A stretch of 64,000 nucleotides of DNA, from positions 37,068,898 to 37,132,897 of the forward strand of contig NC_092577.1 in the NCBI RefSeq assembly GCF_037975245.1, in the 5' to 3' direction. The notes under the pieces were generated by a model. It made no database searches, was not told where the DNA came from, and was given only the letters and a program-made list of their open reading frames with translations. Shown here one piece after another: positions 16,429-60,500 of the stretch. Positions within the stretch are counted from its first letter, which is position 1. Each line of letters opens with the position of its first letter. The DNA is from Apostichopus japonicus (taxonomy: Eukaryota > Echinodermata > Holothuroidea > Aspidochirotida > Stichopodidae). The translations under genes were made by a program, and so were the position numbers.

Positions 16429-19400
16429 CTATGCGATCTCGCCGAGATAAATCTGCTTATCACTGGACCCTGATACAACTGCAGGTGAAACAATGGAACA
16501 GAATTAATTACATCACAGGTACTTCAAGAAACGAAAAGAACAAGAAAAGTATCCATGGACTGTTCTTACACATGTTTAGAAACAATTCCGGCTCAGTACT
16601 GTAAACAGACTAAATATGTAAAAATATTTGTGATTATTTTCATGCTGGTTATTCATTTCTTTACAGAGAAATAGTTTGACTGTACTTACTAATGGGAGTA
16701 ATGGATTCCGTTGGGTGTAAACTGTGTTACAATTATTGTACTGGGAGCGTCCTGGTTTGACTGTACTTACTAATGGGTTCCGTTGTGTGTATACTGTGTT
16801 ACATTTATTGTACTGGGAGCGTCCTGGTTGGACTGTACTTACTAATGGGTTCTGTTGGGTGTAAACTGTGTTTCATTTATTGTACTGGGAGAGTCCTGGT
16901 TTGACTGTACTTACAAATGGGTTCCGTTGGGTGTAAACTGTGTTACATTTATTGTACTGGGAGAGTCCTGGTTTGACTATATTTACTAATGGGTTCCGTT
17001 GGGTGTAAACTGTGTTACATTTATTGTGTTGGGAGCGTCCTGGTTTGACTGTACTTACTAATGGGTTCCGTTGGGTGTAAACTGTGTAACATTTATTGTA
17101 CTGGGAGCGTCCTGGTTGGACTACTTACTAATTGGTTCCGTTGGGTGTAAACTGTGTTACATTATTGTACTGGGAGCGTCCTGGTTGGACTGTACTTACT
17201 AATGGGTTCCGTTGGGTGTAAACTGTGTTACATTTATTGTACTGGGAGCGTCCTGGTTTGACTGTACTTACTAATGGGTTCCGTAGGGTGTAAACTGTGT
17301 TAAATGATTGTACTTGGAGCGTCCTGGTTGGACTGTACTTACTAATGGGTTCCGTTGGGTGTAAACTGTGTTACATTTATTGTACTGGGAGAGTCCTGGT
17401 TTGACTGTACTTACAAATGGGTTCCGTTGGGTGTAAACTGTGTTACATTTATTGTGTTGGGAGCGTCCTGGTTTGACTGTACTTACTAATGGGTTCCGTT
17501 GGGTGTAAACTGTGTTACATTTGTTGTACTGGGAGAGTCCTGGTTTGACTATATTTTTTAATGGGTTCCGTTGGGTGTAAACTGTGTTACATTTATTGTA
17601 CTGGCAGCATCCTGATTTGACTGTATTTACTAATGGGTTCCGTTGGGTGTAAACTGTGTTACAATTATTGTACTGGGAGCGTCCTGGTTGGACTGTACTT
17701 ACTAATGGGTTCCGTTGGGTGTAAACTGTGTTACATTTATTGTACTGGGAGAGTCCTGGTTTGACTGTACTTACTAATGGGTTCCGTTGGGTGTAAACTG
17801 TGTTACATTTATCGTACAGGGAGAGTCCTGGTTTGACTGTATTTACTAATGGGTTCCGTTGTGTGTAAACTGTGTTACATTTATTGTACTGGGAGCATCC
17901 TGGTTGGACTGTACTTACTAATGGGTTCCGTTGGGTGTAAACTGTGTTACATTTATCGTACAGGGAGAGTCCTGGTTTGACTGTATTTACTAATGGGTTC
18001 CGTTGTGTGTAAACTGTGTTACATTTATTGTACTGGGAGCATCCTGGTTGGACTGTACTTACTAATGGGTTCCGTTGGGTGTAAACTGTGTTACATTTAT
18101 CGTACAGGGAGAGTCCTGGTTTGACTGTATTTACTAATGGGTTCCGTTGTGTGTAAACTGTGTTACATTTATTGTACTGGGAGCATCCTGGTTGGACTGT
18201 ACTTACTAATGGGTTCCGTTGGGTGTAAACTGTGTTACATTTATTGTGTTGGGAGTGTCCTGGTTTGACTGTACTTACTAATGGGTTCCGTTGGGTGTAA
18301 ACTGTGTTACATTTGTTGTACTGGGAGAGTCCTGGTTTGACTATATTTTTTAATGGGTTCCGTTGGGTGTAAACTGTGTTACATTTATTGTACTGGCAGC
18401 ATCCTGATTTGACTGTATTTACTAATGGGTTCCGTTGGGTGTAAACTGTGTTACATTTATTGTGTTGGGAGCATCTTGGTTTGACTGTACTTACTTATGG
18501 GTTCCGTTGGGTGGAAATCAACGTCATTGACTGACCCAGAGTGGCCAGGTAGTTTGTACAAGAGTCTTCTTGAAGTGGTATCCCAAACATACACAAACCT
18601 ATCTGCGGATCCAGCAGACACTTTACTGCCGTCTGGAGACCAGGCACATCTTAATAAATTCTGAAAGATAAATAAATGACTTAATTAATAAATCATAAAC
18701 TAAATGAGTGACACACCAAATGACACAGAAAGACCAATGGTAAAATCCTTCAGCAACTGTCCAAGATACACTAACATTGCTATTATACTTGTAATCAAAC
18801 AAGGACTAACATTGCTATTGTACTTGTAATCAAACAAGGACTAACATTGCTATTATATTTGTAATCAAACAAGGACTAACATTGCTATTATACTTGTAAT
18901 CAAACAAGGACTAACATTGCTATTATACTTGTAATCAAACAAGGACTAACATTGCTATTATACTTGTAATCAAACAAGGACTAACATTGCTATTATACTT
19001 GTAATCAAACAAGGACTAACATTGCTATTATACTTGTAATCAAACAAGGACTAACATTGCTATTATACTTGTAATCAAACAAGGACTAACATTGCTATTA
19101 TACTTGGAATGAAACAAGGACTAACATTGCTATAATACTTGTAATCAAACAAGGACTAACATTGCTATTATACTTGTAATCAAACAAGGACTAACATTGC
19201 TATTATACTTGTAATCAAACAAGGACTAACATTGCTATTATACTTGTAATCAAACAAGGACTAACATTGCTATTATACTTGTAATCAAACAAGGACTAAC
19301 ATTGCTATTATACTTGTAATCAAACAAGGACTAACATTGCTATTATACTTGGAATGAAACAAGGACTAACATTGCTATAATACTTGTAATCAAACAAGGA

Positions 19401-22400
19401 CTAACATTGCTATTATACTTGTAATCAAACAAGGACTAACATTGCTATTATACTTGTAATCAAACAAGGACTAACATTGCTATTATACTTGTAATCAAAC
19501 AAGGACTAACATTGCTATTATACTTGTAATCAAACAAGGACTAACATTGCTATAATACTTGTAATCAAACAAGGACTAACATTGCTATTATACTTGTAAT
19601 CAAACAAGGACTAACATTGCTATTATACTTGGAATGAAACAAGGACTAACATTGCTATTATACTTGTTATGAAACAAGGACTAACGTTGCTATTATATTT
19701 GTAATTAAACAAGGACTAACATTGCTATTATACTTGTAATCAAACAAGGACTAACATTGCTATTATACTTGTAATGACACAAGGACTAACATTGTTATTA
19801 TACTTGTAATCAAACAAGGACTAACATTGTTATTACACTTGTAACAAACAAGGACTAACATTGCTATTATACTTGTAATCAAACAAGGACTAACATTGCT
19901 ATTATACTTGTAATCAAACAAGGACTAACATTGCTATTATACTTGTAATCAAACAAGGACTAACATTGCTATTATACTTGTAATCAAACAAGGACTAACA
20001 TTGCTATGATACTTGTAATCAAACAAGGACTAACATTGCTATTATACTTGTAATCAAACAAGGACTAACATTGCTATGATACTTGTAATCAAACAAGGAC
20101 TAACATTGCTATTATACTTGTAATCAAACAAGGACTAACATTGCTATTATGCTTGTAATCAAACAAGGACTAACATTGCTATTATACTTGTAATCAAACA
20201 AGGACTAACATTGCTATTATACTTGTAATCAAACAAGGACTAACATTGCTATTATACTTGTAATGAAACAAGGACTAACATTGCTATAATACTCAGCGAC
20301 GTAGCCAGGAATTTGAAAGGGGGGAGCACTTTTTGCATTTGATATGGGGGAGGGGTCTAAGGGGAGGGGATAATCAAACAAGGACTAAGTCTACGGGGCA
20401 CCAAAAGGACACACAGTTATTGTTGTTCCTTTGAAATGACAGTTTGACAGAAATAAGGCAGTTTGGTAAGATTGTACACAATGTACAGTATTTATCATAT
20501 TATTATGCGATCTGGATATTTACCTTCTCAAAGTTATGTGTATGACCTTGAATCAACTTTACACATCTCTCAGCCGGAGCAAATGGTCTGATGTCCCATA
20601 TACGCACTGTATAAGAACAAATGTTTCTTTTGATGAAAGAGTGAACAAACTTATGGGAAACATTTTGTTAATTTTGCTGAAATTCCAACGAAAGAATGAA
20701 AGAGATTATGGGATTTACGTGTGATTACAGTGATTACTAAGAGCATGAGAGGCTTGCCTGAAAAGAAAATGAGAAGGAATGTGTTTTCTCTCCATGAATT
20801 TCAAGATTTCTTTATCTGTTGTCAGAGAATATTTGCAAGCTACAAGATTCAAGGCGTCATAACCAGAACAAGCTACCACCTAAACGAGCACTGGCTGATA
20901 ACAGCAAATAAATATATGAACTGGGCAAACTGGTTGTCCCTGGACAATCAGGTCTAATGCAACTGGGCAAACTGGTTGTCCCTGGACAATCAGGTCTAAT
21001 GCAACTGGGCAAACTGGTTGTCCCTGGACAATCAGATCTAATGCAACTGGGCAAACTGGTTGTCCCTGGACAATCAGGTCTAATGCAACTGAGCAAACTG
21101 GTTGTCCCTGGACAATCAGGTCTAATGCAACTGGGCAAACTGGTTGTCCCTGGACAATCAGGTCTAATGCAACTGGGCAAACTGGTTGTCCCTGGACAAT
21201 CAGGTCTAATGCAACTGGGCAAACTGGTTGTCCCTGGACAATCAGGTCTAATGCAACTGGGCAAACTGGTTGTCCCTGGACAATCAGGTCTAATGCAACT
21301 GGGCAAACTGGTTGTCCCTGGACAATCAGGTCTAATGCAACTGGGCAAACTGGTTGTCCCTGGACAATTAGGTCTTACTTTCTGGTTATAATCTAAACAG
21401 CAAATTCCATATAGAATCTCACCTGTGTTATCCATAGAATTTGACATAACGTATGAGCCATCAGGACTAAGAGTGAGACCTGTTATGGAATCCATGTGAC
21501 CTGTCATCTTATACAGAACATCATTCTTTCTCATGTCCCATATCTACATAGACAAATAAACAGACAGACAGATAGATGAAAACGATTATGATAGACCTAT
21601 ATGCAGCGATGGTATGCTACAAGAAAACAATGGTACTTTCAAACTTGCTAAAAACCCACTAAAATATATCAATTTACATTCTTTTACATTTATCCAATAT
21701 TCTTCCCAACTTTCATAAACTTTATTAACTGAATCAATATGCAAATATTTATGAATATATTAGAATACCAATCTATGACATCCAACATCATATCACCTTG
21801 GCAAACTTTTCATACATTGTAAAAATCTCATTTAAGAATGTGAACATCCTGATTAGCAATGAGACCTTGATTCATGACCCTCTTATTTTCAAAAGCAAAG
21901 TGGTACAAGCCACCTCGACTGATAGCTGCAGCTCTTAATATCCTGTCACACATAGACTATACAGCTGAGAGAGTGATCAAAAGCACCTTGATTTATGAAC
22001 CTCTAATGTTCACAGGGTCATTATCAACAACAAAAAAAGAAAGGAAAATGGTGCAGAAAAGCCATCTGGACTGATAGCTGCAGCTCTTAACAGCCTGCAA
22101 AACATAGACTTTATGTTTACAGCTGATATATTTAATTTGGACTGATAGCTGCAGCTCTTACCAGCCTCAAACATAGACTTTATGTTTACAGCTGATATAT
22201 TTAATCTGGACTGATAGCTGCAGCTCTTACCTGCCTGTCAAGCATAGACTTTATGTTTATGTCCAAATATGGACCATATTATTAGAGTCGTTATTTATTC
22301 TGTTGAGAAGGGGAATCTGGTTATATTCCTTTGGTCATGAGAAATGAACGAACGTGGCAGAGACAAAATATGAATAAAATAGCCACTCACTTTAATGGTG

Positions 22401-25400: not shown

Positions 25401-27350
25401 AGGATCGAAACGTCAGGCCAACTTACTTTTACACAATCTATTGATATCAAAAGGTTTTTTTCTTTGCAGCCCAAATCTGACAAGTACTCTACTTATGTCC
25501 TGTGTAATTTCTCTGGATCAAAAGCCTAACTCTAAATCAAAACTGTAAGCAAATGATTTCACTGTAACATAATTGCTTTTAATTTGTATGCATTTTGGAA
25601 TGAACATGTTTCCTGCTTAATCATGCCCCTCTCATTGACTGTTTTCTTAAACTGTAAAGTTTGATGAAGAATCAATAGTACAACCAACCAATTGTAACAT
25701 GTTTTGCAGTATAACTTACATATAGTTCTATCAAAAGAAGCCGAAGCCAGGAGTTGTCCATCAGGATGAAATTTGCAACAGAATACTTCTCCTTCATGTC
25801 CATTGAGTACAATTATGGGTGAATGTAGACCAGACGTTCTTGGTGGACCCTGGGCAAATAAACATAACCACATGTAAACTTCATATGTTGTAGAGCTGGA
25901 GTATGGGAGTTCACGATAAACTTACAGGTCATCTAACATGAGACATAAACAAGCATACAGTTTAATGTACCACTCTCAGTTTTACCACAGAGGTTGGGAG
26001 CACCTCAGTCTGAGGAGTCTGTTTTGGCAGGTTTGTAGGTCCTATGGCTAGTCTGTGCCAAGTGAGAACTATTACTATTAGTACTAGTAGAAGCACATCT
26101 GCAAGGTAGTATAGCCATAGGCCTATGAAGTATCATTAGCAGGGTTTTCGTTAGTAGCCGGGACCCGGGTCAAATGACCCGCTTACTGCACGTACATGAC
26201 CCGGCTACTTTGCGACGCTCAGTAAAAAAAAAATAAACTTTTAGCTACGGCTAACGTTTTTGGCCCATTCACGAAGTACAGGCAGTGACACGCTCACATC
26301 TTTACAACTACACTTGAAAAAGTAGTTCATCATACAATAGGCCTAAACGCAATTGGTGTTCGATCGGGACGCAAGCTTTTTTTTAACAAAGTGGCTATTG
26401 TTACGACTAGTCGTAAGAATAATTCCCGACTACGCATGCGCAGTTGCTATTTTCATTACCAGGAGTACTATTTTTACGACGAGGAGAAACAATAATTTCC
26501 GGTTAGGGTTAGGTTAAGGGTTAGGATTGAGGTTTAGGGTTATGTTTAGGGTTAGGGTTACCCCTACTACGTGCGCAGTTGCTTTATTTACTTTACTGCG
26601 CTTGAATTTGCCTTTGTCGTAAGAATAGTTTATAAATAAGGCCGTGGCTATTCTTACGACTAGTCGTAACAATTATTTATAAACTATTCTTACGACAAAG
26701 GCGAATTCAAGCGCAGTAAAGTAAATAAAGCAACTGCGCATGTAGTAGGGGTAACCCTAACCCTAACTTTAACCCTAAACCCCAATCCTAACCCTAACAC
26801 TAACCCTTACCGGAAATTATTGTTACTCCTGGTCGTTAAAAATAGTGCTCCTGTCATAAAAATAGTAACTGCGCATGCGTAGTCGGAAATTATTCTTACG
26901 AACAGTCGTAAGAATAGCCACTTTGTATAAATAATTGTTACGACTCGTCGTAAGAATAGCCACGGCCTTTTTTTAATGGAACGCAAACTTCTTGGGGGGC
27001 TTGCATCCCTTGGATGCAAATTTTTTTCTCTAGTACATTACTGAGACTACTGAAACCCGGCTTTTCCGTTCAAACTCAAAGCCTAAATCAGGCTAGGATC
27101 CTACTCCTAGTCCAAGCATAGTCCTAACATTAGGCTATAGGCCAAGCGTATTGCTTAGTCTAGCCTACGTCTTACAGTTATACTACAGTACTGCAGACAA
27201 GCGTAGTGCGATTGGCAACGTTGAGAGAAATGTATTCACCGAATTTGCAAGTGCCTGAGAACCTTTATCGACAGCGACCAAATCGTGTCTAGGCTTCTTC
27301 AATGGAACGAGTGCCCCTGATTCCATAGATCGCTTGTTTTCAACTGGCAT
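16429..27350 (-). CDS. SNRNP40: U5 snRNP 40 kDa WD40 protein, 9 exons
   Basis: Exons in coding order (minus strand): 27350-27240, 25849-25720, 25026-24933, 24030-23865, 22513-22391, 21543-21423, 20606-20524, 18660-18495, 16478-16429. All splice sites are GT-AG and frames join to give 347 aa (human 357). The short N terminus has the basic PLKKPRH block, followed by seven WD40 repeats: landmarks are GHEGEVFCCKFHPDG, LWNVYGDCENYAVLRGHKGA, MKGHTSFVNSC, SGGIDNTIKIWDMRKNDVLY, IRPFAPAERCVKL, GSADRFVYVWDTTSRR and the C-terminal SSDKQIYLGEIA. The family protein belongs to the U5 snRNP and the catalytic spliceosome, in the nucleus. Introns 4, 6, 7 and 8 contain minisatellites; the intron 8 array repeats the end of exon 8 with its donor. 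The 50-base last exon is separated from exon 8 by that array. Confidence 0.97.
16673..18512 (-). repeat. ~72-bp minisatellite of SNRNP40 exon 8 end plus donor, ~25 units
   Basis: On the sense (minus) strand each unit contains CACCCAACGGAACCCAT followed by TAGTAAGTACAGTC. The true exon 8 ends with the same 17 bases followed by AA and donor GTAAGTAC at 18494. Thus about 17 exonic bases coding HPTEP plus the 5' splice site are amplified through the intron. Most units retain GTAAGT or GTAAAT; a few (TTAAAAAATATAG type) have lost it. Longer-period identities among neighbouring units show later amplification of two-unit blocks. Confidence 0.97.
18770..20293. repeat. 35-bp minisatellite, about 43 units, SNRNP40 intron 7
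   Basis: Plus-strand unit: ACTAACATTGCTATTATACT followed by TGTAATCAAACAAGG. Very homogeneous; sporadic variants (GGAATGAAAC, CTATGATAC) recur, showing block-wise spread. Confidence 0.97.
20293..20375 (+). mobile_element. Short remnant of a hAT-like element end
   Basis: CAGCGACGTAGCCAGGAATT followed by a G-rich run resembles the left end of the 46186-46497 element. It abuts the 35-bp array and no right end is evident. Confidence 0.35.
20918..21374. repeat. 42-bp minisatellite, about 11 units, SNRNP40 intron 6
   Basis: Plus-strand unit: GGGCAAACTGGTTGTCCCTG followed by GACAATCAGGTCTAATGCAACT. The 42-base period is a multiple of three and both strands stay open through the array. The exon 6 reading frame also stays open through the intron start into the array (see findings). 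Confidence 0.97.
21890..22260. repeat. Imperfect ~65-bp repeats, SNRNP40 intron 5
   Basis: The words GGACTGATAGCTGCAGCTCT, AACATAGACTTTATGTTTA and CAGCTGATATATTTAAT recur three to four times with drift. Confidence 0.8.
22780..23215. repeat. Imperfect ~30-bp repeats, SNRNP40 intron 4
   Basis: ATATGACATCACATACATGG followed by AATTATCTTAT recurs a dozen or more times with indels. A longer block ending AACTCACATACTTGCACA is itself repeated about 170 bases apart. Confidence 0.85.
25380..25443 (+). ncRNA. Hammerhead-ribozyme-like motif
   Basis: Sequence order: AGCCT, TTGAAGA (hammerhead core CUGANGA with C to U), a five-pair stem GATCC-TGCTA-GGATC, GAAA, then ACGTC and AGGC pairing with the initial GCCT. 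That is the layout of a minimal hammerhead with a very short stem III. An almost identical copy is at 54687-54745. Motifs of this type are carried by Penelope-like retroelements (established). The altered core base suggests reduced or no activity. Antisense within SNRNP40 intron 2. Confidence 0.5.
26387..26967. mobile_element. Two nested 286-bp TIR elements with telomere-like blocks
   Basis: The outer copy (26387-26639 plus 26935-26967, inverted) is interrupted by an inner copy (26640-26925). The inner copy is flanked by a perfect 9-bp target duplication TATAAATAA at 26631-26639 and 26926-26934. The outer pair is flanked by TTTTTTTAA at 26378-26386 and 26968-26976. Ends are GGCCGTGGCTATTCTTACGA and the inverted GTAAGAATAGCCACTTTG; the left end includes the 16-bp palindrome TTACGACTAGTCGTAA. 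The centre holds several CCCTAA/TTAGGG-like units. No transposase. The 9-bp duplication resembles Mutator-like elements. Lies in SNRNP40 intron 1. Confidence 0.92.
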
Positions 27351-34728: not shown

Positions 34729-37700
34729 CTAGTAATTGTAAGAAACATGGCCGGTTACCGCATGCTGTGAGGGAGCTGTGCTTGTGGATAGAGAGAACTG
34801 TGAAGGAGGCGAGTGTGACCTTGCAAGAAAACCTGTACCCAGGTAAGCATATAGAAGGTAGACATGATAAACATCATCTTGTTTATTCTCTTGACCGAAA
34901 ATTCAAACCTCTATCTAGTTTATATCTTACAACAGGAATTTCTAAGAATTCACTCTCATGTACATAAAATAACACCTAACTTGACATAGACTATCAGAAA
35001 AAAGGAAAATACATAGGTAACTGTGCTTTAGAGGATGGATTTTTTCCTGCATTTTAAGCATCTATAATGACAAAATTTTCAAGTTATTATCAGAATTGAT
35101 CATTCATTTTCTTTTCTGTTTTTTCTTTCTTTTATCATCTATTCATATGACATCTTGATTTGAAGTTTTGCTTTCTCACGGGGGCGATAGTGTGGATTTC
35201 CTCTTTTTCTTCCGGAGTCTTGCCAAGCAAGGACTAGATTTGTCATGTTTGGCCAACTTGAAGATTCATTTCACTGATCCTGTCCCACTTTTAGAGTTGG
35301 TAAGTCCATTGATATCAAAATGAACTCTGCTTTGAATTTCTAGTTTTTTTTTTATTTCTAATTTAAGGAGTGTATTTAATTTAATAAAAAAATTAAAACA
35401 TTTGACAACCTGTCATCATGAAACATAAAAATATTGCAAAAGTGGGACAATAACTGCAGGAAAATGACCCTACGAATACATATCTCAGAGGTGATGAGAG
35501 TCTAAATAAGGAGCTTGGATTTGGCATTTTTACCAGACAACAGCGTTTTTTGGACATTTGTAGATATTTTTGTGATTCCTTTTGCATTCCTTCATGTTAT
35601 ACTCCTTACTCTATGAGTCTGTCTATCTTTGCAGCTGAAACTTCGACGCCATCCTCTGATTGTTGAAAGCAAATACCTCACACTGGGATCCCTCCTAAAT
35701 GACTGGTTTCCAGGTCACTTTGACCCTGCAGGTAAGACATACTTCAACACTGAATGGCAGTGATTCCTAGTGCTTTGACTCCTGGTGCCATATTACTTAT
35801 TCAACTGCATGGTTTTCAGCTTTTCTTGAACCCTGGCTATAAGGCATACTGATCAGATACTGATAGTTGATTTTTTTTAAATCTCGCCATATGGAGTCTC
35901 TACTCCATGACAGCTCTTCCGCTGATCTCTGACCTCACAGGTAGAACAAACTTTATCTCTGATCTAAAGTCATTTTGAATATCTTATCTCCCGGTGTCCA
36001 AAATTCAGTGGACCCCAAAATATGATATACTTTACTTGTGATCAGGGTGACCCAGGATCTATATCTGTCCACAGAAATGCAAGAAACAAAAGAAGGAAGA
36101 ATTGTTCCTCTTCAGTTATTATTTGAATGTAATCTTTGGGTAGTTGTTAGTTAGTCATAGCTAGCTCTCTGACTGTCCATCTCTATGCCAAAAGAAAATG
36201 AGTACGTAACTGAATTAACTGAATTAACAAATAAAATGAAAGAAACGGTCTTGAAATGATTAGAAGACTATCAGTTATTTATAATTGCATGTGAATTGCA
36301 GGTAAATACTCTTTGCCTTTCAGATTTGAATCATCTTCCATCCAGAGCTGCTCTGACTGCCCAGCTATATACACAGACTTCTCTTTATCCAGTACTAAAT
36401 AAAGTGCCAATATACAACATTGCCGAATGGAATCAATACTATCAAGACGCAGTCAATTACAAACAGGATAAAAGAGAACTTGAATGTGAGTAAAGGTCAA
36501 GTAGTCAGCTCCTTCAGGGAGTACTTTATCTGGTGACGTATTACAAAGTGCAAAATGTTGATGTCGCATGACTTGATCAGAGTAACCAACGGATACGACC
36601 CAATGAGAAAGTAGTACTTTAATCTTTTAAAAGCAAAAGTAAAAGGGTCACCCTATTTCTGTAGGATTTTGTTGATCAACACCAAACTGAAGACATGTTA
36701 CTATAGATATACACCTATGCAATATAAAATGGATTTCATGATTATCCAGAAAAAAAATGTTCAAGTTATGCAGACAGGGGTGTCAATAGCCAGGTTAGAA
36801 CCCTAGGACAATTATATTTTCAGATCCCCGTAATTTTTCCTTAGGTATATTTTGAAAACACCAGTTATAATGCCTTGTTACAGTCGTAGACTTTGTACAT
36901 GACAGTTATTGTTCCTATCCAAGTTATTTAGGTATACGTGCTAAGTGCAATATTTTAGTAAAGAAAGAAATTCCTTCTTTGGTTTACAGCTCATATGCCT
37001 AAACACATCAAGGAGGTTCAGTCAAAGTTTGCTGTTCGCTCAATACTGAGGGCGGGCTATAACTGGACAAAGTTGTTGGAGCTTTACAAGTCGTGTTCTT
37101 CTCCGCTGCAATTCCGCCAAGAGCTACGTGACATGGATGTTCAGTCTTCCACTGCTCGAGCTATTGCTTGGATGGTGACCGACATGAAACTGGAACAAAA
37201 TGGATCAAGACCAGTAAGTCATTTAGTAAACTTAAAAGGTACTTGTGTGTCCCTGTATCTACTTCTACTGCTGTAATGGATCAAGACCAGTAAGTCATTT
37301 AGTAAACTTAAACGGTTCTTGTGTGACCCTGTATCAACTTCTACTGCTGTAATGGATCAAGACCAGTAAGTCATTTAGTAAACTTAAACGGTTCTTGTGT
37401 GTCCCTGTATCTACTTCTACTGCTGTAATGGATCAAGACCAGTAAGTCATTTAGTAAACTTAAACGGTTCTTGTGTGTCCCTGTATCTACTTCTACTGCT
37501 GTAATGGATCAAGACCAGTAAGTCATTTAGTAAACTTAAACGGTTCTTGTGTGTCCCTGTATCTACTTCTACTGCTGTAATGGATCAAGACCAGTAAGTC
37601 ATTTAGTAAACTTAAACGGTTCTTGTGTGTCCCTGTATCTACTTCTACTGCTGTAATGGATCAAGACCAGTAAGTCATTTAGTAAACTTAAACGGTTCTT

Positions 37701-40700
37701 GTGTGTCCCTGTATCTACTTCTACTGCTGTAATGGATCAAGACCAGTAAGTCATTTAGTAAACTTAAACGGTTCTTGTGTGTCCCTGTATCTACTTCTAC
37801 TGCTGTAATGGATCAAGACCAGTAAGTCATTTAGTAAACTTAAACGGTTCTTGTGTGTCCCTGTATCTACTTCTACTGCTGTAATGGATCAAGACCAGTA
37901 AGTCATTTAGTAAACTTAAACGGTTCTTGTGTGTCCCTGTATCTACTTCTACTGCTGTAATGGATCAAGACCAGTAAGTCATTTAGTAAACTTAAACGGT
38001 TCTTGTGTGTCCCTGTATCTACTTCTACTGCTGTAATGGATCAAGACCAGTAAGTCATTTAGTAAACTTAAACGGTTCTTGTGTGTCCCTGTATCTACTT
38101 CTACTGCTGTAATGGATCAAGACCAGTAGGTCATTTAGTAAACTTAAACGGTACTTGTGTGTCCCTGTATCTACTTCTACTGCTGTAATGGATCAAGACC
38201 AGTAAGTCATTTAGTAAACTTAAACGGTTCTTGTGTGTCCCTGTATCTACTTCTACTGCTGTAATGGATCAAGACCAGTAAGTCATTTAGTAAACTTAAA
38301 CGGTTCTTGTGTGTCCCTGTATCTACTTCTACTGCTGTAATGGATCAAGACCAGTAAGTCATTTAGTAAACTTAAACGGTTCTTGTGTGTCCCTGTATCT
38401 ACTTCTACTGCTGTAATGGATCAAGACCAGTAAGTCATTTAGTAAACTTAAACGGTTCTTGTGTGTCCCTGTATCTACTTCTACTGCTGTAATGGATCAA
38501 GACCAGTAAGTCATTTAGTAAACTTAAACGGTTCTTGTGTGTCCCTGTATCTACTTCTACTGCTGTAATGGATCAAGACCAGTAAGTCATTTAGTAAACT
38601 TAAACGGTTCTTGTCGGTCCCTGTATCTACTTTCTACTGCTGCAATGGATCAAGACCAGTAAGTCATTTAGTAAACTTAAACGGTTCTTGTGTGTCCCTG
38701 TATCTACTTCTACTGCTGTAATTTCTAGGACAACTTCCTTAATGTTTTTGAATGCCCCCATACACCTATCATTTGCCCCATAGTCAGTGTTGTAGCCGAG
38801 TACAGCACATTTAGAGTCATATTCAATGTCTGAGTCCTTGACGTCTGAGGTTGATCAGAGTCCGATCAGAGTTGAATCTAAATCCTTATTGACTGAGTCC
38901 AATTACCAGTTAACAATTCTTCAAGTGCTGACTGTACATGTCTCTGTTTCTACAAGTCCCAGTCCTGATTCTTCACCTAAGTCTGTTGAAGTATTTTAGT
39001 AAACTTGTTCAAAGTACAACAGTTGTAGCCTGTATATAGTCAGAGAACACAAATAATGCATTGTCTGGGAGTAATGTCTGTTGTGTATACACCAGTTACT
39101 GAAATCCACTGATCAGCAGATATCTAAAATATTTGACCAAGGGCACTATACACAGCATGTGTTGGAGACAATAGGAAGGAGATGGGGGTGGGGTGGGGTA
39201 ATGAAATATCTGGCTTCATGTCATCATTGAGTTTGATACTTTAATATTCTTTTCTGACAACCTTTTCATATATGTTTCCTTTTTCCCCCTCTTTTACAGT
39301 ATGTTTTGAGGATCAGAAAGCAGATGTCTCCCCAGGAATATATTGGATTTAAGGATCCCAGGGCTTACTATTTTGTATTAAGAGTTGCTAATAAGTTTCC
39401 AAAGTGTTTTCTGACCTTGGCAGATTTGGAGTTTTCGCTTGAGGATAATCCTATCGACACTCCTGAAGGGTTTTCTTTCACTCAACGTCTCTCACCAAAG
39501 TCCTTCTGTGCTACTTGTGGAGGTACCAGCCCAACTAATCCATATGGATATGACGTCAATGGCAGTAAGTGGAGAATGTTACCCACAAATCATTATTCTT
39601 TGCTATACCATGGTGATGTCATCTGTGTGGGTGTGTCGTATATGACTCCCAAGCTTGTTAAGATGTAAACTATCTCAAAGTACATCTTGGTTGAAGTTCA
39701 TACTTTTATAGATATTATATTATTATTATTATTAGAGACCCTCCATTGTGAGTAGTAGAATCCTATTGAAATGGTTGGAGTTCAAAAGTCAAAGTCTGAA
39801 AAACTCATAACATAAAGCTTGAATTTAATTGATAGTTGATGTGGAGTTCTTAATGCCCCTTGTTGATTTCTTTGTATGTGTAAGTGAAGTTGTGGTATGC
39901 TGCTTCATATTAAAGCCTCACATCCCTCAGCCCCTCAAATTTTGTACCCCTTCCCCTAACCTTGCATCAACCCTCCTCTGTTGCCTCTTGTTGATGTCTG
40001 AAAGTTCTTTGAATGTACTGTCATTGTTTATCTGGTACAAACCTTGCTTTCTTAATTATCTTTTCTACCTGGAAGATGAAGTCTTTGGTCTGAATTTTGT
40101 TGATCCTGCAACATCTCAAGAATGGGAAGAAGAGGAAAAGGGTTCAATAGAAGATGTCGAGGAGAGGTTTGAGGCTTACTGTCGTTTTCAGCTAGAGAAG
40201 GAAGAGAAAGAACACAAAATAACATCCTTTGTGATGGGTTCCACGTTCAAGAAGAGCTTGCTGCTGAATCGGATGGAAGAAGAGGACTTGGAAGATGACC
40301 CAGAACCAACAGGTAGTTTTATTAAATGTCATATACACACAATTCCCTTTTCTCTATCCCTCTTACTCCCACCCCTTCGCTCTAATCTTCCCACCTCCCC
40401 CCCCCGCCCCAAAAAAAATTAGAATAGAAAGTCTTCATTGGAATACCAAATGAGTGTCAGTTATCGCCTACAAAAAAGATTTAAAAAAGTTTTATGAACA
40501 TTTCTAAAAGTTTTATTTACTTCTGTGTCTTAATTTATATTGACAAATTGTTTGGAATGTGCTCCAGTGTAGTGATGACATGATTCACTCGGTCCACTGT
40601 TTAGAATGTGCTCCAATGCAGTGATGAAGTCATTCACTCGGTCCACTGTTTAGAATGTGCTCCAATGCAGCGATGACAAATTCCACTCGGTCCACTGTTT

Positions 40701-48591: not shown

Positions 48592-51500
48592 ATGGGTAAA
48601 TCAAAGAAAAGGCAGAATTCACGAAAGGTTGGGGATCCAGTCGCAAAATCTGAACCTTTAGCAGAGCAAATTTTAGGAGATGCTTCAGTGAGAGATTCTC
48701 AACGAGTAAAATTTAGGCAACATGCAGAAGAAGATACGGTAATAAGCGTGCTGACCACGTTTTTAATTGACAGTGCTGTTCATATACTAGGTTGTTAAGG
48801 GTGTAGTTTCGCGACATATCAAACTTTTACTTTTAAGACATGGTTACAAGCCCCGTCTCTCTTTACTCTAACAAAAAAAGTTGCGTCATGTTATTCAGTC
48901 GGCCGAGTAAAAAGAATTTCCTACAATATGACAATGTTTCACTGTATATAATATTCTTTATTTCTTGAAGGCACTACTACTTCCAGTTATTCACCTAGCC
49001 GAAGCTAGTTGTAGGCTACTACTACTAGTACTAGTACTGCAGTAGTACTACCTAGTATAGGCCTGTATTATGACATTGTCAATGTGGTTCCAACTGACTT
49101 TCAGCTGTTTGCTGATGATTGTGTCTGCTATTGGGAAATAAATAGCGTCAGCGACTGTCATAAGCTTCAGGATGATATAATTACTGAGGACAGTGTGCTA
49201 ATTTTTTTCCATAAATTTATTGTACATTTCAAACTAAGGAATACTCTACACTACAGATTGCCCATGCCAGGGTCCAAGATAAATAACACACAGGTAATAA
49301 CTACATTGGCATGTAATATTATCAGGCTAATTTGTTTGGCAAATTTGCTATACCCAGGCATAGATTTCTTTCACCATTTGAAGATACAAAATGTATGTAT
49401 TCCACATGCAATCAATAAGCTACACTATGAGTATGACTGATTCACCTTTGCAAACAGCACTATACAGAGATTTAAACAATGATAACAAAACAGGGGGTCA
49501 TGCGAATGACAGCAAATACCAGCAGATTACAAACCATAAAGGATAGCATTAGCTAAATGTTAATTGGAACATACAAATAATGCATTGTGATTATTCTTTC
49601 TCTCTTTTGCAGTTTGTTGATGACAAATTATCCAAAAAGATTCTCGATCAAGCGAGACAACAGCAAGAAGAACTTGAAGAAAATCATGGAGCAAAAAGGT
49701 TAGAATTTGTACAACCAATACTGTAGTACATAGCAAATGCAGTGTGTTATAGAAAACTCGATTCATCTGGATTTTATGACACCTGATCAACCTGGGCAGG
49801 TCCAAGCTATTGTATCCCTAGAAGCCAAATTTCAAACTTTACTGAAACACCCTAAATGTGGTCTCATGTTAAAGCTGAATTATTGAAGTTTCAGATTTTC
49901 ATAATTTTTTTGAATTTTTTTCCCTATTCAAACAATTACAGCCAGCTAATTTGCATAAACTCAAATTGCAGTGTGACGTACGGGACATTTGGAATCCTAT
50001 TTCGCTGCCAGCAATATGAACTTATTGAATATAAGTTATGTGGGACATGATACACAGTTCCTTCCAATAAGTTTGACATATTATGTTTGGGGGTTCATTA
50101 ATTAAATATGCTAATTAGCTAGTGTCCAAATACTGATGTCCCGTACGTCACAATTTTCAGCACTTTTTTCAAGTTTTGATATGGAGGAACAATTTTTTTT
50201 TTGGTGATATTCTATAAAGTTCTAATTAAGAACATTGCTCAACAATTTCCATCCCCAAAAAATTGAAATAATATTCACTGCAAATCTAATTATCAAATTT
50301 TAAAATGTGACGTACGGGACAAAATGTGACGTACGGGACATAGTGTGGTGGAAACCCTGTATTTATACATAATAAACATGCATGGGCTCCAATGGGGACC
50401 TCTACTGGAAACCTTCCAACGCTTACAAGTTTATTTTGTTGAAAGCTGGTAGTTGCAACTTATAATCCCTGCATGCCTGAAGAGCACATCATGGCAGCAA
50501 ATAAACTATTGACTGATGACCACCAACAGCCCGGGTGTTGTTTGACTATTGGGAAGTCAATTGTGCGTGTGGGGGATACAGAATCATCTACAATGCTATT
50601 CAACATTGACACTGAATGAGGACGACTTCAAGAATGTTGAGTTTGCATTTCGTAGGCCTATTGTGAAGTGTGACTATGATAATGTGCAACTATGTTCTTG
50701 TTTCCTGAACTTAGATAGTAGACATTGAGATTTTTAGTTACAAGTGTAGAGTTTCCCATTAGTGGGGAGTATGGTACAGTGTTGTACAGTATACTGTACA
50801 TACCAAAACAGTTTTGCACCAAAACTTTGCATCTTGAATCATTTGTGGTCTAACAAAGCAAGAATTGATGTTCTGACTATTTGGTCTGGTAACCAGTATT
50901 AGGTCTATAGAGTTTTCTTTGTTGTACTACTGTAGTTTCATATATGGACATTATGTGGCATTACTGTGGACATTTAGGTATATTTTGAATGGGATGGATC
51001 ATATTTCAACTTCAGGGTCAATAGTGGGGAGTATGATACAGTGTTGTACAGTATACATACCAAAACAGTTTTGCACCAAAACTTTGCATCTTGAATCATT
51101 TGTGGTCTAACAAAGCAAGAATTGATGTTCTGACTATTTGGTCTGGTAACCAGTATTAGGTCTATAGAGTTTTCTTTGTTGTTCTAGTTTCATAGATGGA
51201 CATTACGTGGCATTACTGTGGACATTTTGGTATATTTTGAATGGGATGGATCATATTTCAACTTCAGGGTCAATAGTGGGGAGTATGATACAGTGTTGTA
51301 CAGTATACATACCAAAACAGTTTTGCACCAAAACTTTGCATCTTGAATCATTTGTGGTCTAACAAAGCAAGAATTGATGTTCTGACTATTTGGTCCGGTA
51401 ACCAGTATTAGGTCTATAGAGTTTTCTTTGTTGTACTAGTTTCATAGATGGACATTACGTGGCATTACTGTGGACATTTTGGTATATTTTGAATGGGATG

Positions 51501-54500
51501 GATCATATTTCAACTTCAGGGTCATTAGTGGGGAGTATGGTACAGTGTTGTACAGTATACTGTACATACCAAAACAGTTTTGCACCAAAACTTTGCATCT
51601 TGAATCATTTGTGGTCTAACAGAGCAAGAATTGATGTTCTGACTATTTGGTCTGGTAACCAGTATTAGGTCTATAGAGTTTTCTTTGTTGGATATACTAG
51701 TTTCATAGATGGACATTACGTGGCATTACTGTGGACATTTTGGTATATTTGAATGGGATGGATCATATTTCAACTTCAGGGTCAATAGTGGGGAGTATGA
51801 TACAGTGTTGTACAGTATACATACCAAAACAGTTTTGCACCAAAACTTTGCATCTTGAATCATTTGTGGTCTAAAAAAGCTAGAATTGATGTTATGAGTA
51901 CTTGATGTATGTGTAGAGTAGATTAATACTTTATGCATTCCATTTTTTATGTGGAATGATCTCACAAGTACAGTCACTGCTCTTTTCCGTATCCCAGAAA
52001 GAAGGAAATATGGCATGAAATTACCAATGACATTGTTCTGGCATATCCAAATTAATTTTTTTATGTAGAAATCAGCTTGTTATGGTATATTCAGGAATAA
52101 AAATATGAGTTTTCATAGTCAATTTGTATATGGACAAATTGTCCCGTACGTCACATGTCCCGTACGTCACAGGACAATTTTCATTTGTGTAACCACTGTA
52201 CTGGAATGGCTTCATATTTTTTTCTAATATGTTACAGCTTAGCCCTTGGAAGTTTAGGCTATTCACTAGTTATAACAGCTTGATCACTGCCCTCCTAATT
52301 TCAGAGCGGTTTCAGCTTTGTTCTTTAGTAAAAAAAACACAAAATTCTCTGGTCCCGTACGTCACACTGCACATTAATTAAGATGGGACCTAATTAAAGC
52401 AAGTGTAGGAAATCTTCATGAGTTTGTAATAAAGTAGCAGCAATAACAAATATAAAAAACTGAAAAAGTTTCTGGAAAATAGATTTTATGTAACTTTTAG
52501 ACAAATTTAAGTCTCTGAAATGTCCCGTACGTCACAGTTCAAATAGCTTGGACCTGCCCACCTGCTGTGTGTGTATATGATGTTTATGATCCATATATAT
52601 TCCTGTACCATATTTGGCAAGAGAAAACATTGCTCTTTTCTTCTAATCTGCATGATGTAATTTGTGCTAGATTGTGAAGGAATTCATCAAATGTAGGCCT
52701 ATATTACTCGCATGTGCAACAACAGTGTATAATATGCCTACAGTATAAATCAGTCGCTATTAGCTCTCCATAGAGGTAAAGTATGTTTTCGTAACACATT
52801 TTACATGCAATCTCTCATGGTTGGTTTGCAACGAAAGCAAGGAAATTCTAAAATGAAATATCCAAATTCCTAGCTAACTACTGTAGTATCAAAAACATCT
52901 TGATAGCTTACTTTAAGATATCTTTTCAGTCAATCTCTGAAGAGAAAGACAAATCTAGGTTCCGTAGATGCAGCATCGGATGAAGAAGATGAAGATGGCT
53001 TACCAGAAGATGATCCTGAGGATTTCTCCGAAGGGGCCGTTGTAAGTCCATCAAGATACTCCCTTTTCCCCCATTTTTTTGGTAATTACAGGTAGCTACA
53101 AGCAGTTGAATTTGATCAAATAATACATCAAAAGATTAAAGACAAGAAAACAGAAGTATGAATTTGTTTATGTCTTTCTTAAAAGTGAATCACTAAAGTT
53201 CTATTTAAGTTGGTTTAGATCTAAATAGAATAAATGTTGATATCATGTCACACAATTAAGAGCCATGTTGAGTTATCCAATGTGTCATTCTGTATTTTCC
53301 CATATATGCAAACGACCTACATATTAGTTTGTGCCTTCTACATTGTGTGGCAGGCAAATCCTATATTACTGCTACCTCCAAATTAGGACAATTTACTGAA
53401 TAATGTACTTTCATATCCTAAGCATATTTCAGAGCATTTGTACTACAATATGAGTATCATTTTTCTATCAGATAAAGATTAGGAACTGTTCACACTGTCA
53501 GTACAGGTGTTTTGAAGCATGATATGCCAGGACAGTACAGAGTAGTATAAGCATTAGAATCAGATAAAGGTTAGGAACTGTTCATACTGTCAGTACAAGT
53601 GCTTTGAAGCATGAAATGAGAGGACAGTATGGAGTGGTATTGGCATTAGAAAATTGTCCCATCCGGCTGCTGCTACTGTAAAACTAGTTACTTTCTGAAG
53701 AAATAATCAGCTAAATTTCTGTTGCAATTGTTATCTTTTTTTGCCTGCTAGGAAATTGACAAAGAGGATGAAGCAGCCCTGGAACAGTTTATGAATAAAG
53801 ATGCTCCTCCAAGGCAGACATTAGCAGATATAATCATGGAAAGATTAACAGAAAAGAGAACAGAAGTTGCTTCACAAATGTCTGGTAGGGTTTATATTCA
53901 TGAGAGGTAGAAGAAGCTGTGTATTGTGTGTAGAGTTCTTTATCTACAAGACAGCATTTCAAGAATATTCAAACCACCTTAACTGATGAATCTAGTTTTG
54001 AATTTTGATAAAAAAAAAAAACATTTGTGCTGTTCCATGTGTTATCATTCATTCTAAAAGAGATTCAGGTTTAGCAAATAATGTTCAGTAGATGGGATCA
54101 TTAATGAGGTCACAACAAATGTTATTTCTTGTTTGGCAGGATATCTCACAAGTTTTATCATTCTGTTTGTAGTAAAAGACCACAATGGGCAAGGTGTTGT
54201 CTGACTTGTTTACAAGAAAATATGCAAATGTTGATGTTTTTTAGTAGTTCAAGTAATATTTCTGGTCACATTGATGCATGGAATAATATCACAGCATTCC
54301 TTTCATTTAAATTAAGATTCAAGTTTATATCTGGATTGGAATACTCTCAGTTATAGTATTTTGCCCTTGTTTCTTTGACTAGAGAGTGGTGTATCACTAC
54401 CAGAAGTTGATGAAAGGGTTGTTCAGGTTTACAAAGGGGTGGCGCAGCTTCTTTCAAAGTACAGGAGTGGCAAATTACCAAAGGCCTTCAAAGTTCTACC

Positions 54501-57500
54501 ATCTCTAAGATCATGGGAACAGGTAAGCACTCACAAAACAAGTTAGTTAGCATTTTTTCTTGTATATATTCTGAGAGCTTGTAATGAGGCCTTGTTTAAG
54601 TTAGCTAGAATTATATCCTAATAAAAATATAATAAAACTGTTAGCAAACTGCTTATCCACTAGAGAGCCTGTGTAATAGAATGTTTAGCCTTTGAAGAAG
54701 ATCCTGCTAGGATCGAAACGTCAGGCCAACTTACTTTTACACAGAATTATATCCTGTTTGAATTGAGCAGAGAATTACACAATTTTTCATCTTTTTATAA
54801 ATTTATATAGATCCATTTCATTTAAATATCTGTCCAACTTGTGAGAATTTAGGTTTCCACATTACAGTAAATCATGTGCAGTTCTGATATATATTACTTT
54901 TTGAATGACATAGTGACATTGTTTTGAAAGAACTGAAAGACTTTCATGACATAAAACCCATTCTTACCATCAGCCCTGCCCTTATTAAATGATCCATAAT
55001 ACTGAATTGAAACTTGCTTTGTATTAAAGAAAGGATCAGGAGGGACACTTAAGTCCCCATCAAGGACCCAATAGGAGAGAAAAAAACTGAAGCCACAAAC
55101 ACTCAGACCCGATAACAATGATTAAAGTGCTTGTCCAAAGCATTCTTTAACCCATTCACACTATTTGCAAGTACTACTTTCTCAGGCAAACCGTTCCACT
55201 CATTTACAACCCTATTAGAAAACATTATGCTGAATATTAATCCTACTTTGTGACTTGTGGAGTTTGAAACAATGACCTCTGGTACAACTACTATGAGCAA
55301 ACATGAAAAGTCAGTGAAGAATAAATTGTCAGAACCATACACAATCTTGAAAACCTGAATCAAGTCACCAGGCAACCTCCTAAGCTCCAGTGTGGTGAGA
55401 TTCTACAGCTGTAACCTCATATAATAATGAACACCCTCTAAGGAAATATCTTCGCATTTACTTTTACTATAGATTTTGTACATCACTCAACCAGACAGAT
55501 GGACTGCTGCTGCAGTATTCCAAGCTACCAGGTTATTTGCCAGCAACCTAAATGCAAAAATGGCACAAAGGTTTGAACTTAACATCAGTTAAACTGTTTT
55601 CATAAACTCGGTTTATCTCCTGTCTTTATTTCATCTTCTATGTATTGTCTCCTTTGTTCATTGTACGTTAATATCTGAGAGGATGTATTGTTCACATAAT
55701 CATTCATATTCATGTTGTTTATTGTATGTTAATATCTGAGAGCATGTATTGTTCACATAGTCATTCATATGCATGTTGTTCATTGTATGTTAATATCTGA
55801 CAGGATGTATTGTTCACATTGTGATTCATATGCATGTTGTCTATTGTATGTTAATATCTGAGAGCATGAGGCGGAGTGTCTAGCCTAGTGGTTAACGCCG
55901 GCGTCTCCCAGTCATGAGATCCCCGGTTCGATTCCCCGCCGACAGCAATGTGTGTCGTCTGGCAAGGGTGTTGTTCAATAACAACTTCCCGACATGGACG
56001 TTAAATGGATGTGTGCCGAGAGATTGGCTTCGGTCAGCTTGCGAGTCTATAAGCCTCCATGGCTTCTTTCGCGAGTTCCTGCTTGCGGGAAGATCACATA
56101 TACATACATACATACATACATGTATTGTTCACATTGTTATTCATATGCATGTTGTTCATCGTATGTTAATATCTGAGAGCATGTATTGTTCACATTGTTA
56201 TTCATATGCATGTTGTTCATCGTATGATAATATCTGAGAGGATGTATTGTTCACATTGTGATTCATATTCATGTTGTTTATTGTATGTTAATATCTGAGA
56301 GGATGTATTGTTCACATTGTGATTCATATTCATGGTGTTTATTGTATGTAAATATATGAGAGGATGTATTGTTCACATTGTGATTAATATGTATGTTGTT
56401 TATTGTATGTTAATATCTGAGAGGATGTATTGTTCACATAGTCATTCATATGCATGTTGTTCATTGTATGTCAATATCTGAGAGCATGTATTGTTCACAT
56501 TGTTATTCATATGCATGCTGTTTATTGTATGTTAATATCTGAGAGGATGTATTGTTCACATAGTCATTCATATTCATGTTGTTTATTGTATGTTAATATC
56601 TGAGAGGATGTATTGTTCACATAGTCATTCATATTCATGTTGTTCATTTTATGTCAATATCTGAGAGCATGTATTGTTCACATTGTTATTCATATGCATG
56701 CTGTTCATTGTATGTTAATATCTGACAGTATGTATTTGTTATCAATTGTGATTCATATTCACGTTGTTTATTGTATGTTAATATCTGAGAGGATGTATTG
56801 TTCACATTGTGATTCATATGCATGTTGTTTATTGTATGTTAATATCTGACAGGATGTATTGTTCACATTGTGATTCATATGCATGTTGTTTATTGTATGT
56901 TAATATCTGAGAGGATGTATTGTTCACATTGTGATTCATATTCATGTTGTTTATTGTATGTTAATATCTGAGAGGATGTATTGTTCACATTGTGATTCAT
57001 ATTCATGTTGTTTATTGTATGTAAATATATGAGAGGATGTATTGTTCACATTGTGATTAATATGCATGTTGTTTATTGTATGTTAATATCTGAGAGGATG
57101 TATTGTTCACATAGTCATTCATATGCATGTTGTTCATTGTATGTCAATATCTGAGAGCATGTATTGTTCACATTGTTATTCATATGCATGCTGTTTATTG
57201 TATGTTAATATCTGAGAGGATGTATTGTTCACATAGTCATTCATATTCATGTTGTTTATTGTATGTTAATATCTGAGAGGATGTATTGTTCACATAGTCA
57301 TTCATATTCATGTTGTTCATTTTATGTCAATATCTGAGAGCATGTATTGTTCACATTGTTATTCATATGCATGCTGTTCATTGTATGTTAATATCTGACA
57401 GTATGTATTTGTTATCAATTGTCATTCATATTCACGTTGTTTATTGTATGTTAATATCTGAGAGGATGTATTGTTCACATTGTGATTCATATGCATGTTG

Positions 57501-60500
57501 TTTATTGTATGTTAATATCTGACAGGATGTATTGTTCACATTGTGATTAATATGCATGTTGTTTATTGTATGTTAATATCTGAGAGGATGTATTGTTCAC
57601 ATTGTGATTCATATTCATGTTGTTTATTGTATGTTAATATCTAAGAGGATGTATTGTTCACATTGTGATTCATATTCATGTTGTTTATTGTATGTTAATA
57701 TCTGAGAGGATGTATTTGTTACATTATGATTCATATATGCATATTGTTCATTGTATGTTAATATCTGAGAGGATGTATTGTTCACATTGTGATTCATATT
57801 CATGTTGTTTATTGTATGTTAATATCTAAGAGGATGTATTGTTCACATTGTGATTCATATTCATGTTGTTTATTGTATGTTAATATCTGAGAGGATGTAT
57901 TTGTTACATTATGATTCATATATGCATATTGTTCATTGTAGAATTGCTTTGTGGTACTAATTGAAGGTTTCTTTTCTTTCTTAGGTTTTACAATGTCGTA
58001 TTACTTCCAAGGATACGAGATGACATATGTGAATACCAGAGGTTAAATTATCATTTATATATGGTAAGTGTAACAGAGGTTAAATTATCATTTATATATG
58101 GTAAGTGTAACAGAGGTTAAATTATCATTTATATATGGTAAGTGTAACAGAGGTTAAATTATCATTTATATATGGTAAGTGTAACAGAGGTTAAATTATC
58201 ATTTATATATGGTAAGTGTAACAGAGAAGTGTGGGAGAGATAAGTTATTCAAAGCTTCATAACTAAGCCTTTGATGCTGCTTACACATATGTTATTGAAG
58301 CCAGTTTATTAGTGATTAATTGGAACATATATACATATATAGTCTGTTCAAATTATCTTTGGAGATCCGGCTTAAGGAATCACAATGACTTCGAGTTGGT
58401 AAGCATCATGCTTGATCTCTAGAGTAAGGCAAATATTTCACCAAAACAGAGCTAGTATTATTCGATACTGGTGACAAACGCCTACAGTGGAATTAAAACC
58501 TTCTTTGCTGGTTTTCAAACCTATGCATATACAATCAGCATCCATAGCCTAGTGGGAGGCCGGGGTTCGAATCCCGGTGGAGGCTAGAAGTTTTTTCACT
58601 GTTCTGGATTTTCCAGCTCACTACAATTTCAATTATATATATATATTGATATATATCTATGTTTATTTGAAAGTCCAATAAAGTTGGAAAAAAGTCACAT
58701 TTTCTTTACTTTGGTTTTCTCCATTTAGTCTCTGAAGAAGGCACTGTTCAAACCTGCTGCATTCTTTAAGGGTATTCTTTTACCTTTGTGTGAGGTAAGT
58801 GGATTAGGGTAGTGTCCTCATTATGCCTTTTATCCTGAATCACATTGATTTACCAGTGTGATATAAGCCTTAATGCATCATATTACATTTAGGTATTGTC
58901 AACAATGCCTGATTTCTACCTTTGCAGCAATTTATCTTAGTTTATTGGTAACTAATGGGAACATATCCTATTGTAAGTTGATCGTATGTTAAGCTGTACA
59001 GTCTGCATTTTAGATGTGTTAATTATGAAAGAAATCCAATAGATATCGTTCTGGGCTCATTTTGAAGAAAATGTTATGGTTGTTTAACTTGTTTTTCGGA
59101 CATATTTGGTTGTCCGAAGGATTTTTTTTGTTGTCCAATGAAAGCACCCAAAAATACTACTGTAGTTGCATGATATGGTATATTGCACTCATCCTGTGCA
59201 CAAAAGTTACTAAATATTTGCTCAGGGACAATTATGTTAGTTTATACGTACGTCCTGCGATTTTCCAACGCTTGGATTTTTAAGTGGCGCCAAGCGCCAT
59301 ACATATCTGCAATGCATAAACTTTGCCTTGTAGGTGAGTACCATAACGTTAGGCTGCGCAGGCCTAGTCCATCGGCCTGAGGCTTAAGTCTAGTACTCTT
59401 AGTGACTAGTCTTACCGAGATTGACTTTGTGGAAATTTTGGACAGAATTGTAGTGTATGGCATTGTTACGAAAGCAGGATTCTGCATCTGGGATGCAGTC
59501 TTTTAGCCAGTGGCGCAAAACCATCATATTGCTGCCATCCGGCAAACATTTGGAGGAAGCAAACCCCAAGAACACACTCACAGCTAGGCCTATAAAAAAC
59601 GTAACAAGCAAATTTTTGAATGAATATATTTCTTCCTTTTCAAAACACCACAACTTCTTGTTAAAAGAACCAAAATTCCAGTACTTTGCTCAGATGATTG
59701 AATTTGTTTGCAAACAAATAAATCATAACAATCAACTGCAAGTACAGAGTGAATACAGAGATTTTCATGGTAAAAATAGTCAATGGTGGTTTCCAAATTT
59801 CCTGTGATTCGATTGGCTAATAGCCATTACCATTGTTCACAAGCATTCTTGCATCTATATGCTCAATGAATGCAAAGGGTGTTGTTTAAATGCAACTAAT
59901 TGTAACTATGGTAACTAGTCTACGGCAAACTGTCCGCTTCAGGATTTGACAATAATTTTGTTGTTGTATACTAGTTACAGCTTTCATCATTTGATTTATT
60001 TGTTCACATTATATACATATCACTTTAGGCTTCCGTTTCATACAAGCCAATGTGTGTCTGGTGTTATTATAACTAAGTATTCTGCGTTCCTATCGAGGTA
60101 TTTTAAAGTGCATGTTTTCATGGAGGACTGGTGACGCAAGTTTTTCTGACTGACGCAAACATTGTTAAGACGTTTTAAGTTTAATAATCCTGGCAACAAT
60201 AAATGAATGCAGCAACATAAAAGAACATACGTATGCCCACATTTACAGTATATAACTGCATACACTTTGTACTCCAGCTAGCCTGTCATATGTGGGTGCA
60301 GCTGCCAGGGTCTGTAGTGTACAAAGTATACCATACTTTACGTAACCATTAGTGCTTATGTACAGTTTCCACATTCTGTCTTTACTAATAATGAAAGAGC
60401 TTACTGCATGTTAGGGATGCGAAGGGGTTATGGAACATTCCAAAATGTGATTTATATCTTACGTTGTTTCTAGTATGAATGGGGGCGATACCATCACTAT

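Follow-up and report, generated by a model that had tools for sequence, protein, structure and literature searches.

Copies of an exon edge fill most of the last SNRNP40 intron in a sea cucumber, very probably as a neutral minisatellite of the 'mirage' type

The SNRNP40 locus and its intronic array

The window (the whole 64,000-nt stretch of sea cucumber DNA that was analysed) carries the SNRNP40 (U5-40K) gene on its minus strand. The penultimate coding exon (18495–18660, 166 nt), recognized by its translation, its splice with the last exon and its alignment to human U5-40K, ends in CCCATAA/GTAAGTAC on the minus strand and is followed by the last intron (16479–18494, 2016 nt, GTAAGT to CTGCAG) and the coding portion of the last exon (16429–16478), which ends in TAG; intron and last exon were delimited by the spliced translation, which for the exon was read against the sequence. 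The translation spliced over this intron ends in HPTEPIIVSGSSDKQIYLGEIA and a stop, and 70 of the 71 residues of the spliced product can be aligned to human U5-40K (chain 6qdv_N, E 2.6e-54), the HPTEP at the exon edge lying opposite HPDEP of the human protein.

About nine tenths of the last intron consists of a tandem array with a period of 72 bp, located by Tandem Repeats Finder at 16699–18517 (25.3 copies, 91% matches). It begins within the exon, some 19 nt before the exon end (17 identical bases, then a mismatch and one further identical base), and this exon edge (18495–18513, minus strand) is the authentic stretch with which the repeat unit opens. The intronic portion (16673–18494, minus strand) holds 25 units, and 195 nt of intron remain downstream of its end near 16673. 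A donor-like GT is present in 23 of these units, 17 of them with GTAAGT and six with GTAAAT, the other two having AAAAAT; the authentic donor brings the GTAAGT/GTAAAT sites to 24. The last unit has a 9-nt insertion and retains GTAAGT, and all units that keep the GT have T at position -2, where the exon has A. The original prediction of a ladder of about 25 copied 5' splice sites, mostly GTAAGT or GTAAAT, is thus borne out, as is its corollary that the pre-mRNA would carry a dense sense-strand run of candidate sites, here 23 beyond the authentic one. An open frame of 407 aa over the array (17271–18494) was set aside as a by-product of the 72-bp period; it differs from the exon's own frame, which is closed by a stop after 35 nt of intron. 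Minisatellites also lie in the two SNRNP40 introns before this one (18770–20293, 35 bp x 43.6; 20919–21375, 42 bp x 10.9), both free of exon edge, and three consecutive introns of the gene are thus array-bearing.

Direction of copying and growth of the array

The 36 nt of exon edge and donor match the intron at 35/36 positions, compared with at most 22 for shuffled sequences (n=20). Six other SNRNP40 donors, taken as 21-mers, have no copy within the next 2 kb (12–15/21 positions, against 14–15 for the best of ten shuffles). The residues encoded at the exon edge are conserved in U5-40K, so that the edge can be taken as ancestral and the array as derived; as read from the sequence, the direction of copying is from exon to intron, in agreement with the earlier proposal that the exon edge and its donor had been duplicated into the intron. 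A dispersed element, introner or satellite, that bears splice-like motifs and inserted into the intron would also account for units with donor-like motifs, and introner elements are dispersed intronic sequences with splice signals. However, the exon edge, which encodes conserved protein, is itself the first unit, and the SNRNP40 unit is confined to one place: all 12 matches of a 144-bp array query in a genome of 671,581,487 bases (35 contigs, one of them the mitochondrial contig of 16,099 bases) fall in the array itself, with no dispersed copy found by this search, which skips very common words. A 37-bp unit in the bystin gene, described below, likewise matches its own place alone in the genome, and an inserted element has a negligible probability as the source of the array.

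Units are identical in blocks (u1=u12, u2=u13, u4=u6=u8, u5=u7=u9 and u14=u20), which reflects duplication of blocks within the array. The exon unit differs at three or more positions from every unit of equal length, and u23, u16 and u18 also stand three differences from their nearest relatives. Tandem arrays can be mis-sized in assemblies, and one amphioxus BflGb6 haplotype was aberrantly assembled in a draft, according to the globin paper (PMC3087553). An assembly artefact is nevertheless highly improbable here, as the units differ from each other in ordered blocks, and what is presumably the source assembly was built from HiFi long reads, as its description states (PMC10344927). We infer that the array grew by recombination: one tandem duplication would have taken in the last ~19 nt of the exon and the first ~53 nt of the intron, and slippage and unequal exchange would then have expanded it to about 25 units.

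Exon-edge arrays in other genes

Exon edges are also duplicated elsewhere in the window. The bystin gene (BYSL) carries a donor-edge array at 58037–58226 (plus strand), in which five identical copies of a 37-bp unit comprise 27 nt of exon and GTAAGTGTAA. The exon concerned (57983–58063) matches Pfam Bystin with E 5.1e-4, below the curated cut-off, and lies in order between exons with stronger matches. In a different bystin intron from that of the donor-edge array, the acceptor edge of an exon (match E 2.0e-30) is duplicated at 60982–61167 (plus strand, 95 bp x 2), and both copies have TTTTTGTTTACAG/TCTGGTACATGCACTCTT. A third donor-edge array, at 37199–38722 (plus strand), consists of 20 copies of a 76-bp unit with 15 nt of predicted exon and GTAAGTC; the exon (36990–37213) is a prediction based on an open frame that has both an acceptor and a donor, and homology searches found no homologue of it.

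A sample of 83 exon loci from three Pfam families, chosen independently of the SNRNP40 finding, was made up of the best 28 of 70 myosin head, 28 of 126 kinesin and 27 of 57 Cpn60/TCP1 matches; the loci partly share genes, and three of them (L076, L079 and L080) come from one frame. Donor-edge arrays of at least three copies were present at 3/83 loci (95% interval 0.8–10%), with units of 53 bp (L006), 46 bp (L064) and 31 bp (L068), and no acceptor-edge array of at least three copies was found in the 83 loci. Two-copy cases comprise the donor edge of L027 (206 bp, 91%), the acceptor of the kinesin exon neighbouring L047 (168 bp) and the bystin acceptor at 60982–61167; a copy at L055 (71%) is doubtful, and the 21-bp array at L056 lies inside the intron, with no exon edge seen in it. 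In the chaperonin array of L064 (1716–2257), TTTCAG stands a short way upstream of the copied stretch of exon in most units, which thus look like mini-exons with an acceptor and a donor and are candidates for pseudo-exon use. Arrays of all kinds occupy 15,310 of the 64,000 bases of the window (23.9%) and 24,747 of the 268,152 bases of the 83 loci (9.2%). From a small sample, six sites with donor-edge arrays are thus seen in a single sea cucumber genome, one of which belongs to a gene that is only predicted.

Conservation of the copied donors and predicted consequences of their use

The original prediction had considered that an array in the gene of a spliceosome component might act as a self-regulatory decoy, and had pointed to conservation of the GT beyond chance as a check. 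Among 24 body units (17 of them distinct; the exon unit and the altered last unit were left out), the 17 exon-derived positions had a mean identity of 0.983, whereas the GTAAGT hexamer reached 0.917 and the positions that follow the hexamer 0.950. As many as 86% of 6-nt windows were at least as conserved as the donor hexamer (75% with identical units collapsed), so that conservation of the GT does not exceed chance, and the G at +5 is the most variable position of the hexamer. With a hexamer no better conserved than its surroundings in the unit, the decoys show no sign of purifying selection. Arrays of the same kind occur in bystin, myosin and chaperonin genes, and a spliceosome-specific decoy role was rejected as the main reading on these two grounds. 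A decoy function of the SNRNP40 array is unlikely, and the array is probably without function.

Donor strength was scored with a generic donor matrix. Across the six arrays, one of the 113 GT-bearing decoy units was stronger than its own authentic donor, 49 were equal and 63 weaker; in SNRNP40 all 23 were weaker, and in L068 all 38 GT-bearing copies read GTAGTA, against GTAAGT in the authentic donor, every one being weaker. The weaker decoys may give the true site an advantage or may reflect drift; they could hint at selection, although a good donor usually loses strength when it mutates.

All 23 SNRNP40 decoys lie beyond the in-frame stop found 35 nt past the authentic donor. Use of an array donor would give an SNRNP40 protein that lacks its last 16 residues and gains a short foreign tail. 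This stop would precede the junction by 37 nt with the first decoy and by 181, 253 and 325 nt with the three that follow, and by at least 181 nt from the second GT-bearing copy onward. Messenger RNAs are as a rule subject to decay when a stop lies more than ~50 nt before a junction, and decay is therefore predicted for the second and later decoys. These distances, together with the retention of GTAAGT in 17/25 units, would suit a scheme in which array donors are sometimes used, the in-frame stop leads to mRNA decay, and spliceosome activity or array length adjusts the amount of SNRNP40. Yet the donor shows no extra conservation in the units, the same arrays occur in genes without a known splicing role, and the SNRNP40 decoys are weaker than the authentic site in 23/23 cases, which makes such unproductive splicing very unlikely.

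Placement of arrays at exon edges

If exon edges were favoured starting points for tandem duplication, for example through R-loops or pausing at the 5' splice site, mirages would be targeted rather than incidental. The three donor-edge arrays in the sample compare with 0.45 expected under a strict criterion (P 0.011), 0.63 under a second criterion (P 0.026) and 1.64 under the loosest one (P 0.23). Expected numbers derive from how densely other arrays occur within 1400-nt flanks, where neighbouring exons may be included, and the donor position is the end of the family match. An enrichment at donors is possible on these figures, and three donor-edge arrays in one window, one of them being the SNRNP40 finding itself, point the same way as the two stricter criteria. 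Against targeting stand the result under looser array criteria, the lack of any acceptor-edge array of at least three copies in the 83 loci, and the genome-wide counts of triplets of AGGTAAGT (22–52 bases between), which showed no excess over the reversed motif (372 against 465); these triplets are overlapping matches counted regardless of exon edges, and the listed part of them traces back to a modest number of arrays. In a genome so rich in arrays, chance placement may suffice to explain donor-edge arrays. Targeting of exon edges is a weak candidate explanation, which we regard as unlikely.

Arrays of at least three copies number six at donors and none at acceptors (two-sided P 0.03), one of the six being SNRNP40 itself; the sample alone gives three against none (P 0.25), and the absence of acceptor arrays from it compares with 0.85–1.7 expected (P 0.18–0.43). 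These counts are a hint of a bias of arrays towards donors over acceptors. A broader conjecture, which we hold to be possible though rather improbable, is that the sea cucumber has thousands of exon-edge arrays and that long ones are almost only donor-side, since copied acceptors upstream of the true one would be spliced into while copied donors past a complete exon would be ignored. If true, exon context, rather than donor strength or nearness to the intron end, would fix the 5' splice site, and the genome would be a large natural experiment as well as a lasting reservoir from which new splice sites and introns could arise.

Relation to mirages and to models of intron gain

Tandem duplications of exon-intron boundaries have been termed 'mirages' in the amphioxus Adh3 and globin genes (PMC3087553); a second paper names troponin C as a further mirage gene, compares duplications in PGBD5 with mirages, and cites the Adh and TnC mirages as generating no aberrant mRNAs (PMC3902484). 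The SNRNP40 array shares three features with the lancelet mirages of Adh3, BflGb6/BflGb9 and troponin C: the unit spans the exon-intron boundary, with the authentic edge as one unit; the splice signal is present in many, not all, units (a GT in 23/25 intronic units here); and the copies lie inside the intron, with turnover within the cluster, visible here as units identical in blocks. Mirages are further characterized by a boundary unit that escapes homogenisation and by instability of length, either somatic or between haplotypes. The host is an echinoderm instead of a cephalochordate, and unit numbers reach ~39 in the sea cucumber (L068), compared with the 6 units, 3 units and single duplicate given in the globin paper (PMC3087553). 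Intron gain by tandem duplication, proposed for potato RdRp (PMC4974935) and in the globin model (PMC3087553), likewise involves splice signals within the duplication, whereas in SNRNP40 no new intron is seen and the copies stay within an existing one. Introner elements share with the array the presence of splice signals in introns and differ in being dispersed.

The SNRNP40 array is very probably a neutral minisatellite of the mirage type, its neutrality being suggested by the lack of extra conservation in the units. The first donor, the sole one joined to a complete exon, would still be used in splicing, as the continuity of the protein and the lancelet precedents suggest; the copies would leave with the intron and the protein would stay unchanged, which would allow the array to persist. 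Other genes of the genome show the same pattern, and the array therefore appears as ordinary repeat growth tolerated by splicing rather than a control device. It is an ordinary member of a known, if little-known, kind, in another phylum and apparently frequent there. No report of mirages or exon-edge minisatellites in echinoderms was found among the titles and abstract openings of the open-licence literature, and as far as these searches show, the presence and frequency of mirages in an echinoderm are new. Mirages have been described from lancelets, and the present arrays suggest that two deuterostome phyla or more have them commonly. In every long array the real donor is followed by many others nearly identical to it, so that nature itself tests how a 5' splice site is chosen, and exon-edge arrays are a plausible source of new introns.

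Other features of the window and genome

ARAGORN found no tRNA genes in the 64,000 nt. A sequence that by eye looks tRNA-derived (SINE-like) interrupts a 61-bp minisatellite in a bystin intron at 55869–56119. An inverted repeat at 26471–26841 has 169-nt arms that are 92% complementary and 33 nt apart, with telomere-like GGTTAG/TAACCC runs in the arms. At 50305–52171, short inverted repeats (TGTGACGTACGGGACA) flank ~1.8 kb holding a tandem array of 252 bp x 4.5, and the whole resembles a DNA transposon that has an array in its interior. In the wider genome, the cox1 of the mitochondrial contig can be read with the echinoderm code, AAA standing for Asn at places that we take to be conserved, and presumably resembles that of sea cucumbers; another small contig (31 kb; C29, 14745–31219) also has cox1-like matches, which possibly represent a mitochondrial duplicate or a nuclear copy.
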